From the NCBI GenBank assembly GCA_009778655.1, contig WRFZ01000171.1, positions 1 to 37,464 of the forward strand: a stretch of 37,464 nucleotides of DNA, given 5' to 3'. Made by a program: the position numbers and the translations under genes. This DNA is from Candidatus Azobacteroides sp. (GTDB lineage Bacteria; Bacteroidota; Bacteroidia; Bacteroidales; Azobacteroidaceae). Each line of letters opens with the position of its first letter. The stretch's first letter is position 1. Below, piece after piece: positions 5,569-28,849 of this stretch. Under the pieces are notes generated by a model. It was not told the DNA's origin. It ran no database searches and worked only from the letters and a program-made list of their open reading frames with translations.

Positions 5569-6594
<1,026 letters not shown>

Positions 6595-25778: not shown

Positions 25779-26756
25779 ATGATAGAACGAATCATTATTT
25801 TAGACGATACCGATCCCGCTGTTTTCTATGGAACAAATAATTCCAACTTTCGTTTAATAAAGGCTTTATATCCCAAGTTGAGAATCGTTGCCAGAGGAAA
25901 TATAATCAAAGTCATCGGTGAAGAATCGGAATCGGCCGAATTTGAAGAAAAAATTCGGGAAATGGAAAAATACTGCTGCGATTTCAATTTGCTGAACGAA
26001 GAAACGATTATCAATATAACAGAAGGTAAAGCCGACTCTTTCAATGCGACGCAAAAGCAAGAGCATTTGATTATTCACGGAATAAACGGTCGTCCGATTC
26101 AAGCAAGAACCGCTAACCAACAAAAATTAGTTACGGCATTTAATTCTCACGATTTATTATTCGCTATCGGACCGGCCGGCTCCGGCAAGACTTATACGGC
26201 GATTGCTTTAGCAGTCCGATCGTTGAAGAACAAAGAAGTACGGAAAATTATTCTCAGCCGTCCGGCGGTGGAAGCCGGAGAAAAATTGGGCTTTCTTCCG
26301 GGCGACATGAAAGAAAAAATAGACCCCTACCTTCAGCCGTTGTACGACGCTTTGGAAGATATGATTCCGTCGGCTAAACTGAAAGAACACCTTGAAAATA
26401 AAGTGATTCAGATTGCTCCCTTGGCTTTTATGCGCGGAAGAACCCTAAGCGATGCGATTATTATTTTGGATGAAGCTCAAAATACAAGTATTCAGCAGAT
26501 TAAAATGTTTTTGACTCGAATGGGAATGAATGCTAAGACGATCGTTACAGGTGATATTACGCAAATTGATTTGCCGCCGTCGCAAACATCCGGATTGGTC
26601 CATGCCCTGCAAGTTTTGAAGGGAATACAGGGAATTGCTCAAATCGAGTTTAATAAAAAAGACATTGTCCGTCATAAATTAGTGCAACGAATTGTGGAAG
26701 CTTACGAGAAAGAAGATAAGAATATGAACAGCAACAATAAAAAGAATAAAATATGA
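25779..26756 (+). CDS. PhoH-family ATPase
   Basis: This 325-residue protein has an N-terminal KH-like region (about 15-70) and a C-terminal PhoH ATPase domain. Walker A is [11 protein letters not shown] (about 134-144), Walker [12 protein letters not shown] (about 228-238), and the [19 protein letters not shown] segment lies between them. PhoH/YbeZ proteins act in RNA metabolism, often with the YbeY endoribonuclease; the KH-like region supports RNA binding. Here the gene opens a phoH-purC-aroE-nikR operon. Its end overlaps purC by 4 nt (ATGA). Confidence 0.93.
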
Positions 26757-27697
26757 ACGACACTCTTACACGAACCGATTACAATTTTCCGGGACAAACG
26801 GCAATCTATCACGGAAAAGTACGGGATGTATATTCCATCGGCAACGATATTTTAGTGATGATTGCTACCGATCGAATCTCGGCTTTTGACGTTATTTTAC
26901 CCCACGGGATTCCTTATAAAGGACAAGTATTGAATCAGATAACTTCTTTGTTTCTGGATGCGACCGCCGATATTCTTCCCAACTGGAAACTGGCGACTCC
27001 CGATCCGGTGGTAACCGTAGGTCTGCGCTGCGAACCTTTCAAGGTGGAAATGATTATTCGCGGCTATCTTACCGGCAGCGCGTGGAGAGAATACAAAGCC
27101 GGCGCTCGAACGCTTTGCGGAATTGCTTTACCGGACGGAATGCGCGAAAACGAAAAATTTCCGAAGCCGATTGTTACGCCGACTACCAAAGCGGAAGAAG
27201 GTCACGACGAAAATATTACCAAAGCGGAAATTATCGCTCAAGGCTTGGCAAGCCCGGAAGAATACGAACAATTGGAGCGTTATACGCAAGCCTTGTTCCG
27301 GAGAGGAACCGAAATAGCCGCTCAAAAGGGTTTGATTCTGGTGGATACCAAATACGAATTTGGGAAAAAAGACGGTAAAATTTACTTGATTGATGAAATC
27401 CACACGCCGGATTCTTCCCGTTATTTCTACGCCGACGGTTATCGGGAACGATTTGAAAAAGGAGAAGAACAAAAGCAACTTTCCAAGGAATTTGTTCGCA
27501 AATGGTTAATGGATAACGGATTTCAAGGGCAGAAAGGACAAACGGTTCCCGAAATGACGCCGGCTTATTGCGAAAGCGTTTCCGAAAGATACATTGAGTT
27601 GTATGAACGAATTACCGGTGAAAAATTTATCAAATCGGATATTCGGAATCTTTCGGAACGGATCAAAAAAAATATAGAAACGTATTTAAATAAATAA
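26753..27697 (+). CDS. purC: SAICAR synthetase
   Basis: The 314-residue enzyme joins 5-aminoimidazole-4-carboxyribonucleotide and aspartate in purine synthesis. Signature segments are [26 protein letters not shown] (about 21-46, given as [10 protein letters not shown] and ATDRISAFD), the substrate-binding [10 protein letters not shown] and DTKYEFG, and [12 protein letters not shown] (about 220-231). At about 310 residues it is the longer yeast/Bacteroidetes-like form, compared with about 240 in E. coli. ATG overlaps the phoH stop and its own stop overlaps the aroE ATG by 1 nt (TAATG), implying coupled translation. Confidence 0.95.
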
Positions 27698-28440
27698 TGG
27701 ACCTGTACGGATTAATCGGATTTCCTTTGGAACATTCTTTTTCGAAAGATTATTTCAATGCTAAATTCGCATCGGAAAAAATTGACGCGGAGTACATCAA
27801 TTTTGAAATCACCGCGATTACCGAATTAAAATCCATCATTCGCGATAATCCGCAATTGAAAGGATTAAACGTGACCATTCCTTATAAAGAGCAGGTAATT
27901 CCTTATTTGAACCGGCTAAGCGATAATGCCCGTTCGATAGGCGCCGTGAACGTAATAAAAATTGATCGGGAAAAGAAAAAAGTAAAGCTGAGCGGATTTA
28001 ATTCGGATATTATCGGATTCAAACAATCAATCGAGCCGTTGTTGAAACCGCATCACCAACGAGCGCTCATTTTGGGTACCGGCGGTTCCGCTAAAGCTGT
28101 TTCTTTGGGTTTGCAACAATTAGGACGTGAAACAACGTATGTCTCTCGTCGAAAATCGTCGGAGCAAATTCTGACCTATTCTGAATTGTCGCCGAAAGTG
28201 ATGGCCGATCATACCATCATAGTCAATTGCACGCCCGTCGGAATGTGGCCGAATGTGGACGATTATCCGGTGATTCCTTATTCCCTCCTTACCGATAAGC
28301 ATTTGTTGTACGATTTATTATATAATCCCGATGTAACGCTTTTTATGAAAGAAGGAAAGAAATACGGCACCTTTGTCAAAAACGGATTGGAAATGTTGCT
28401 GCTGCAAGCCTTTGAGGGTTGGAATATTTGGACAAAATAA
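27697..28440 (+). CDS. aroE: Shikimate dehydrogenase
   Basis: This 247-residue enzyme reduces 3-dehydroshikimate to shikimate with NADPH, in the aromatic amino acid pathway. It opens with LYGLIGFPLEHSFSKDYFN (shikimate-binding SxS around 14-16) and has the catalytic Lys in NVTIPYKEQV (about 64). The NADP-binding loop is LGTGGSAKAVSLGL (about 124-137), and VNCTPVGMWPNVDDYP follows. It is slightly shorter than average (270). Translationally coupled to purC upstream; nikR starts 7 nt downstream. Confidence 0.94.
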   Translation: MDLYGLIGFPLEHSFSKDYFNAKFASEKIDAEYINFEITAITELKSIIRDNPQLKGLNVTIPYKEQVIPYLNRLSDNARSIGAVNVIKIDREKKKVKLSGFNSDIIGFKQSIEPLLKPHHQRALILGTGGSAKAVSLGLQQLGRETTYVSRRKSSEQILTYSELSPKVMADHTIIVNCTPVGMWPNVDDYPVIPYSLLTDKHLLYDLLYNPDVTLFMKEGKKYGTFVKNGLEMLLLQAFEGWNIWTK

Positions 28441-28447
28441 TAAAAAT

Positions 28448-28849
28448 ATGGCTGTTACTCGTTTCGGCGTTTCTTTGGAACATGATTTGCTCGAAGCCTT
28501 GGACGCTTACGTAGCCGATAATTCATACGCCAATCGCTCGCAAGCAATTCGGGCATTGATTGAGAAAAATATCGTAGAAAAAAAATGGTTATGCAACCGG
28601 CATGTGGCCGGCGCCATTGTCTTGGTTTACGAACCGGAAAAATACGACATTGCTGCACATTTGCTTCAAATTCAACAAAAAAATGCCGACCGGATATTGT
28701 CTTCTCAACGATTTTTCGGAAAAAATAATCTCTGCGTCGAAATCGTCGCCGTAGAAGGAAACGCTCAAAACTTGACTCGTCTTTCCGAAGAACTTATTTC
28801 ATTGAAAGGCATTATTCACGGAAAGTTGATTATGAGCCGGGTGGATTGA
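28448..28849 (+). CDS. NikR-like ribbon-helix-helix metalloregulator with altered metal ligands
   Basis: The 133-residue protein has the NikR plan: an N-terminal ribbon-helix-helix DNA-binding domain (TRFGVSLEHDLLEALDAYV, ANRSQAIRALIEK) and a C-terminal ACT-like regulatory domain (VYEPEKYDIA to HGKLIM). It aligns without gaps to E. coli NikR across the metal region. There, His76, His87 and His89 are replaced by Gln77, Arg88 and Phe90, and only the Cys95 equivalent (Cys96) is kept. A normal square-planar Ni site is therefore not expected. The longer open frame to 28373 lies inside aroE; ATG 28448, 7 nt after the aroE stop, matches the family N-terminus. No nickel transporter, hydrogenase or urease gene is near. 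Confidence 0.88.
   Translation: MAVTRFGVSLEHDLLEALDAYVADNSYANRSQAIRALIEKNIVEKKWLCNRHVAGAIVLVYEPEKYDIAAHLLQIQQKNADRILSSQRFFGKNNLCVEIVAVEGNAQNLTRLSEELISLKGIIHGKLIMSRVD

Follow-up and report, generated by a model that had tools for sequence, protein, structure and literature searches.

A NikR-family regulator with three of four nickel ligands replaced, in a clade where NikR-type operators remain at nickel genes

Among nickel sensors NikR is the textbook case, and homologues receive its annotation on the strength of overall similarity. A nikR-like gene in a Candidatus Azobacteroides sp. genome raises the question of what such a regulator does when most of its nickel ligands are gone. The window, that is the whole stretch of DNA analysed (37,464 nucleotides), carries the following features:

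25779..27697, plus strand: phoH and purC, upstream of nikR and codirectional with it
27697..28440, plus strand: aroE, directly upstream of nikR, a neighbour and not a proven partner
28448..28849, plus strand: NikR-like regulator gene, 133 aa, with ribbon-helix-helix (RHH) and NikR_C domains
28676..28735, plus strand: former nickel-binding stretch, Gln77 to Cys96, ungapped against E. coli and P. horikoshii NikR
28676..28678, plus strand: Gln77 codon, at the position of E. coli ligand His76; Q in 13/13 clade proteins
28709..28711, plus strand: Arg88 codon, at the position of E. coli ligand His87; R in 13/13, with four synonymous codons
28715..28717, plus strand: Phe90 codon, at the position of E. 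coli ligand His89; F in 13/13
28733..28735, plus strand: Cys96 codon, the sole retained ligand (E. coli Cys95); C in 13/13

A NikR fold with three of four nickel ligands replaced

The open reading frame starts with an ATG at 28448 and ends with a stop codon at 28847-28849 (coding 28448-28846). In profile searches, the protein scored above the cut-offs for the RHH domain (PF01402, 21.6 bits against 20.5) and for the NikR_C domain that follows it (PF08753, 59.7 bits against 22), which is the domain order of the NikR family. Its closest solved relatives in a PDB sequence search were the NikR proteins of P. horikoshii (E=7.8e-25), H. pylori and E. coli, further matches being NikR entries as well, and the best PDB structural matches to an AF2 monomer model (mean pLDDT 88) were all NikR. 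By its predicted fold the protein is a NikR and, going by the operators described below, its putative regulon is a NikR regulon too. It is the single NikR found by a NikR_C search of the window's genome (G000, a 2.9 Mb MAG, ~90% complete); a second, canonical copy was sought in the whole MAG and none was found at E<=1. The protein scored 118.3 against a cut-off of 105 for the NCBIfam model NF003381 ('nickel-responsive transcriptional regulator NikR'), thus automatic annotation would name it nickel-responsive, as the preliminary description had foreseen. Five of five ligand-poor relatives tested also passed this cut-off.

In E. coli NikR, the nickel ligands are His87, His89 and Cys95, together with His76 of the adjacent subunit (PMC7055735). 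A MAFFT alignment of the window protein with E. coli and P. horikoshii NikR bore out what had been read from the gene at first: the C-terminal stretch aligns to E. coli NikR without gaps, His76, His87 and His89 are replaced by Gln77, Arg88 and Phe90, only Cys95 is retained, as Cys96, and 28676-28735 is the exact span of codons from Gln77 to Cys96. Judged by these ligands, the protein would fall outside the nickel-responsive class of NikRs. The rest of the protein had been described as intact, which holds for the fold, as seen in the AF2 model and its NikR matches, but not for every residue: the E. coli potassium-site acids Glu30 and Asp34 are Gln32 and Ala36 in the window protein, and His62 is Pro63. 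At the Glu30/Asp34 positions, almost every Bacteroidales NikR, whether canonical or not, has Gln or Arg together with a variable residue. The DNA-reading strand, RFGVSL, is common to the window protein and its canonical relatives.

Nickel or another metal might still be sensed at a different or weaker site, formed by Cys96 with backbone donors, by Cys49 or by His124, or else through a partner chaperone. Such sensing would fit the targets, which remain nickel genes (see below), and the invariance of Cys49 across all ligand-poor groups and of His124 in nearly all of their proteins. It would also fit the retention of Cys96 in all QRFC proteins (groups are named here by the residues at the four ligand positions, HHHC being canonical) and in 93% of QQYC-like ones. 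However, since 35% of HHHC proteins already carry Cys49, it is not a replacement tied to ligand loss, Cys96 is missing from most other ligand-poor lineages, and Gln, Arg and Phe are, from general knowledge, implausible nickel ligands. We also looked for His residues from other positions that could fill the site; among the 13 QRFC proteins, no His, Cys, Asp or Glu is newly invariant in or near the old nickel site. Metal sensing of this kind seems unlikely to us, and a hidden metal site would be less likely than a new effector.

Ligand loss in the QRFC clade and across the Bacteroidales

The homologue alignment that had been proposed as a check on the Q/R/F pattern finds it invariant in the clade of the window protein: all 13 distinct proteins carry Q/R/F/C. 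They come from Dysgonamonadaceae/'Candidatus Symbiothrix' genomes and also from 'Bacteroidia bacterium' records, organisms that we take to be termite-gut symbionts. Chance or sequencing error as the cause of ligand loss is excluded, since 13 distinct proteins agree. The residues are unchanged across synonymous codons in the 13 genes (CAA or CAG for Gln77; CGT, CGA, CGG or AGA for Arg88; TTT or TTC for Phe90; TGT or TGC for Cys96). Median dN/dS among clade pairs is 0.08 for the whole gene and 0.12 for the C-terminal domain, based on the 48 and 51 pairs, respectively, of 78 that gave a finite dS, synonymous sites being often saturated. A dN/dS of about 0.08 together with invariant key residues indicates a maintained protein and not a relic; ligand loss in the clade is fixed and constrained.

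A gene heading for loss, devoid of any regulatory role, would account for the many genomes of the same genus that lack a NikR_C match. It would also suit the window's own locus, where no NikR operator was found upstream of nikR, and its genome (~90% complete), where a search for the usual TonB receptor was negative. The selection analysis largely refutes such a relic, and the NikR operator persists alongside nikR while being mostly gone where nikR is undetected (see below). We hold this explanation to be very improbable.

To place the clade among its relatives, 393 Bacteroidales genomes were searched, of which 96 contained a NikR_C match; the NikRs of these genomes, together with those of other loci, gave 105 distinct proteins. 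HHHC is found in 56 rows, a count that includes the E. coli and P. horikoshii references. The other rows comprise a large ligand-poor set, made of QRFC, QQYC and its relatives, KNYx, RRTS, AQFL and others, KNYx being Paludibacter proteins with zero of the four ligands left. Ligand-poor Bacteroidales NikRs, which come from bacteria of guts and sediments, number 46, and some are devoid of all four ligands. Trees were built with FastTree and with a second quick method. On the tree inferred after masking of the ligand columns (129 columns), the distribution of 46 ligand-poor and 53 HHHC rows needs three state changes, and well-supported branches force at least two, which suggests a history of two or more losses, or of one loss and one regain. 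Outside the Bacteroidales, all 43 NikRs sampled across the phylum are HHHC. In the open-access literature we found no report of ligand-poor NikRs or of such a clade; subscription papers lie mostly outside this scope, and the absence is not proof.

Three loci depart from this division. L042 and L046 (nikR at 6001-6399) carry the single-ligand changes HHQC and HHYC, their sisters L039 and L047 being HHHC, and possibly represent early stages of ligand loss. At L087 (G178), an HHHC NikR is nested within ligand-poor proteins (in a group with 97% SH-aLRT support); it may be a case of ligand regain or of an ancestral state kept.

NikR-type operators at nickel genes

The preliminary description coupled the gene to phoH-purC-aroE and not to nickel genes. 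The linkage is real in the window, where 7 nt separate the aroE stop from the nikR ATG, but it is not clade-wide, the aroE-nikR order being found at 8/13 QRFC loci. We rejected phoH-purC-aroE as a conserved regulon: 5/13 QRFC loci do not have this order, and the window itself yielded no operator. The opposition to nickel genes was not supported, as a NikR operator is found at larEBC/NicO in the window's genome and at a TonB receptor gene in relatives.

The operator described for delta-proteobacterial NikR is GTGTTAC-N13/14-GTAACAC, which also occurs in reversed orientation (PMC545781), and the dyad present at nikR and at nickel genes in the Bacteroidales matches this consensus. The dyad lies ~29 nt 5' of the nikR start in ligand-poor Paludibacter-type lineages as well as at many of the canonical loci. 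With up to two mismatches allowed (shuffled sequences gave <=0.0015), a dyad stands within 60 nt before nikR at 26/52 HHHC loci and at 16/18 ligand-poor loci outside the QRFC and QQYC groups, and at 0/13 QRFC and 0/15 QQYC-like loci. A TonB receptor of ~610 residues is encoded 3' of nikR at most canonical loci near the group, at 8/8 QQYC loci and at five QRFC loci, one of which (L030) has the gene order aroE-nikR-TonB receptor; at other ligand-poor loci, a UreH-like gene and larE, larB and larC lie near nikR. Among the loci having such a following gene, the dyad is found between nikR and the TonB receptor or UreH-like gene at 5/5 QRFC, 13/13 QQYC-like and 10/14 other ligand-poor loci.

The dyad also tracks the presence of the regulator. 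It stands at the TonB receptor in 8/8 genomes with a QRFC nikR and is lacking in 6/8 without a detected nikR, a difference (Fisher p=0.007) that is only indicative because the lineages compared share kinship. In G027 and G035 the operator is present at the receptor and nikR was not detected, these MAGs being 72-76% complete. More generally, the genomes are incomplete MAGs and comparisons within the genus are not phylogenetically independent. Several dyads overlap TAnnTTTG sequences, the form taken by Bacteroidota promoters (GTATTACCTTTG is one instance), which, as a reading of the sequence, points to repression. No operator was found at the hydrogenase operons of relatives.

Genes of nickel uptake or of nickel enzymes have NikR-type operators in the window's genome as well as in sister genomes. 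In the 2.9 Mb of G000 there are two occurrences of the degenerate dyad, which is no more frequent than a control pattern, thus the G000 site rests on its position and on a sister genome. One of the two lies within a coding gene; the other, the one intergenic match (G000:C182:103669-103696, a 28-bp dyad of the form GTAACAC-N14-GTGCTAC), lies in a divergent promoter, between larE-larB-larC on one side and a gene for a NicO-domain nickel transporter on the other, and overlies promoter-like elements. LarE, LarB and LarC of G000 all score above the NCBIfam cut-offs. The sister genome G017 shows the same divergent larEBC/nicO arrangement with the dyad present; in four genomes of the same genus with lar genes and no detected nikR (G005, G006, G008, G032), the cluster is colinear, nicO-larEBC, and the dyad was not found. 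G000 also contains the edge of a NiFe-hydrogenase operon, from which we conclude that the organism probably still needs nickel. That nickel metabolism has been lost from G000 was considered and rejected, LarB, LarC, LarE, NicO and pieces of the NiFe-hydrogenase being present.

Some further observations concern the lar genes and similar palindromes. LarC is present, with LarB and LarE in most cases, in G000:C182 (L152:8905-11623), G004, G005, G006, G008, G017 and G032; LarA (PF09861), the enzyme that would depend on the nickel-pincer cofactor, did not turn up in any of the seven. In one ligand-poor genome, larC is split between two reading frames, and one of the pieces contains a TAA (G253:C4:245932-247163, L112 neighbourhood). 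In the QRFC genome G017, where the usual TonB receptor was not found, a good NikR-type dyad (L189:1501-1528; G017:C9:25971-25998) precedes another TonB-receptor-like gene by ~45 nt, a possible extra member of the regulon. Finally, a conserved palindrome, GTAACAC-N13-GTGTTAC, mimics the NikR operator in G005, G006 and G032 (L178, L180 and L181, site at 1501). It adjoins a gene that by eye resembles an AbiEi antitoxin, in genomes without a detected NikR, and we judged it unrelated.

Possible modes of regulation

With moderate confidence, we propose that the window NikR still binds, and probably represses, a nickel regulon and that it has lost its coupling to nickel at the classical site. Because its RFGVSL strand is the same as in canonical relatives, it would very probably bind the operator GTGTTAC-N13/14-GTAACAC. 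Its likely target in G000 would be the divergent promoter of larEBC and of the NicO nickel transporter gene, and in sister species the TonB receptor promoter; nickel uptake and nickel-cofactor genes would most likely be repressed. Ni(II) would no longer switch the protein at the classical four-ligand site. In the most likely form of this proposal, the substituted residues would hold the tetramer interface in the metal-free DNA-binding state, and the level of basal repression would be set by the abundance of the protein itself. Nickel-independent binding is favoured because the residue sets differ by lineage over the same operator and targets: lineage-specific packing would account for the QRFC, QQYC, KNYx and RRTS sets more readily than a single new effector common to all. 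It is, however, physiologically hard to see why nickel uptake should be repressed constitutively, and the strict residue set of the QRFC clade would be compatible with a new ligand too.

The NikR_C domain has an ACT-like fold. It may be envisaged that the former nickel pocket binds another small molecule or an anion, through contacts of Arg88 and Gln77, and that this ligand gates DNA binding at the nickel regulon. We consider this the main rival because the residues are strictly kept, Q/R/F/C being invariant despite the turnover of synonymous codons, and because Trp47 is invariant in the QRFC, QQYC-like and other ligand-poor groups. The counterpart of Trp47 in H. pylori NikR, Trp54, relays the nickel signal allosterically (PMC9860126). 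Trp47 is, however, also present in 85% of HHHC proteins, and residue sets that vary among lineages with the same operator and targets are not what one common effector predicts. The gene neighbourhood also speaks for such an effector: larE, a gene of the NPN cofactor, lies within ~1.3 kb downstream of nikR at 9 ligand-poor and 0 HHHC loci (Fisher p=0.0003), a contrast that is weakened by the many HHHC loci carrying only ~1.5 kb of flank. Taken together, a re-tuned pocket is a tentative explanation, with a minor share of the probability. The broader idea that ligand-poor Bacteroidales NikRs are repurposed sensors of another nickel-status signal, for instance a metallochaperone or the nickel-pincer cofactor, and have kept the ancestral nickel regulon, strikes us as rather doubtful.

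HlyU, which controls a haemolysin gene, offers a parallel for a regulator that still binds DNA when its metal site is gone. HlyU-type regulators have the ArsR/SmtB fold without its metal-sensing sites (PMC1665450); they resemble the window NikR in combining a metalloregulator fold, a lost metal site and DNA binding that is kept (and, for the window NikR, predicted). They differ in their target, the operators of ligand-poor NikRs staying at ancestral nickel targets. A parallel in gene content is Caldithrix abyssi, where nikR neighbours genes for a TonB receptor and for nickel transport and a NikR-type motif is present, much as at the Bacteroidales loci; in the portion of that source consulted no ligand loss is reported (PMC5317091), whereas the Bacteroidales loci carry canonical or ligand-poor NikRs. 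As compared to the NikRs of E. coli, H. pylori and P. horikoshii, the window protein has the same fold, domain order and length and an RHH reading strand with Arg, and its clade has the same type of operator (the GTGTTAC dyad, PMC545781), with nickel genes as the likely targets. It differs by the replacement of three of four nickel ligands and the missing Glu30/Asp34 acids, and its clade by the absence of an operator before its own gene.

Among the distinct Bacteroidales NikRs gathered here, nearly half lack most or all of their nickel ligands, and in this order nikR is tied to the genes of the nickel-pincer cofactor. Because operators remain at nickel genes, these proteins would constitute a natural experiment on what becomes of a metalloregulator after the loss of its metal site.
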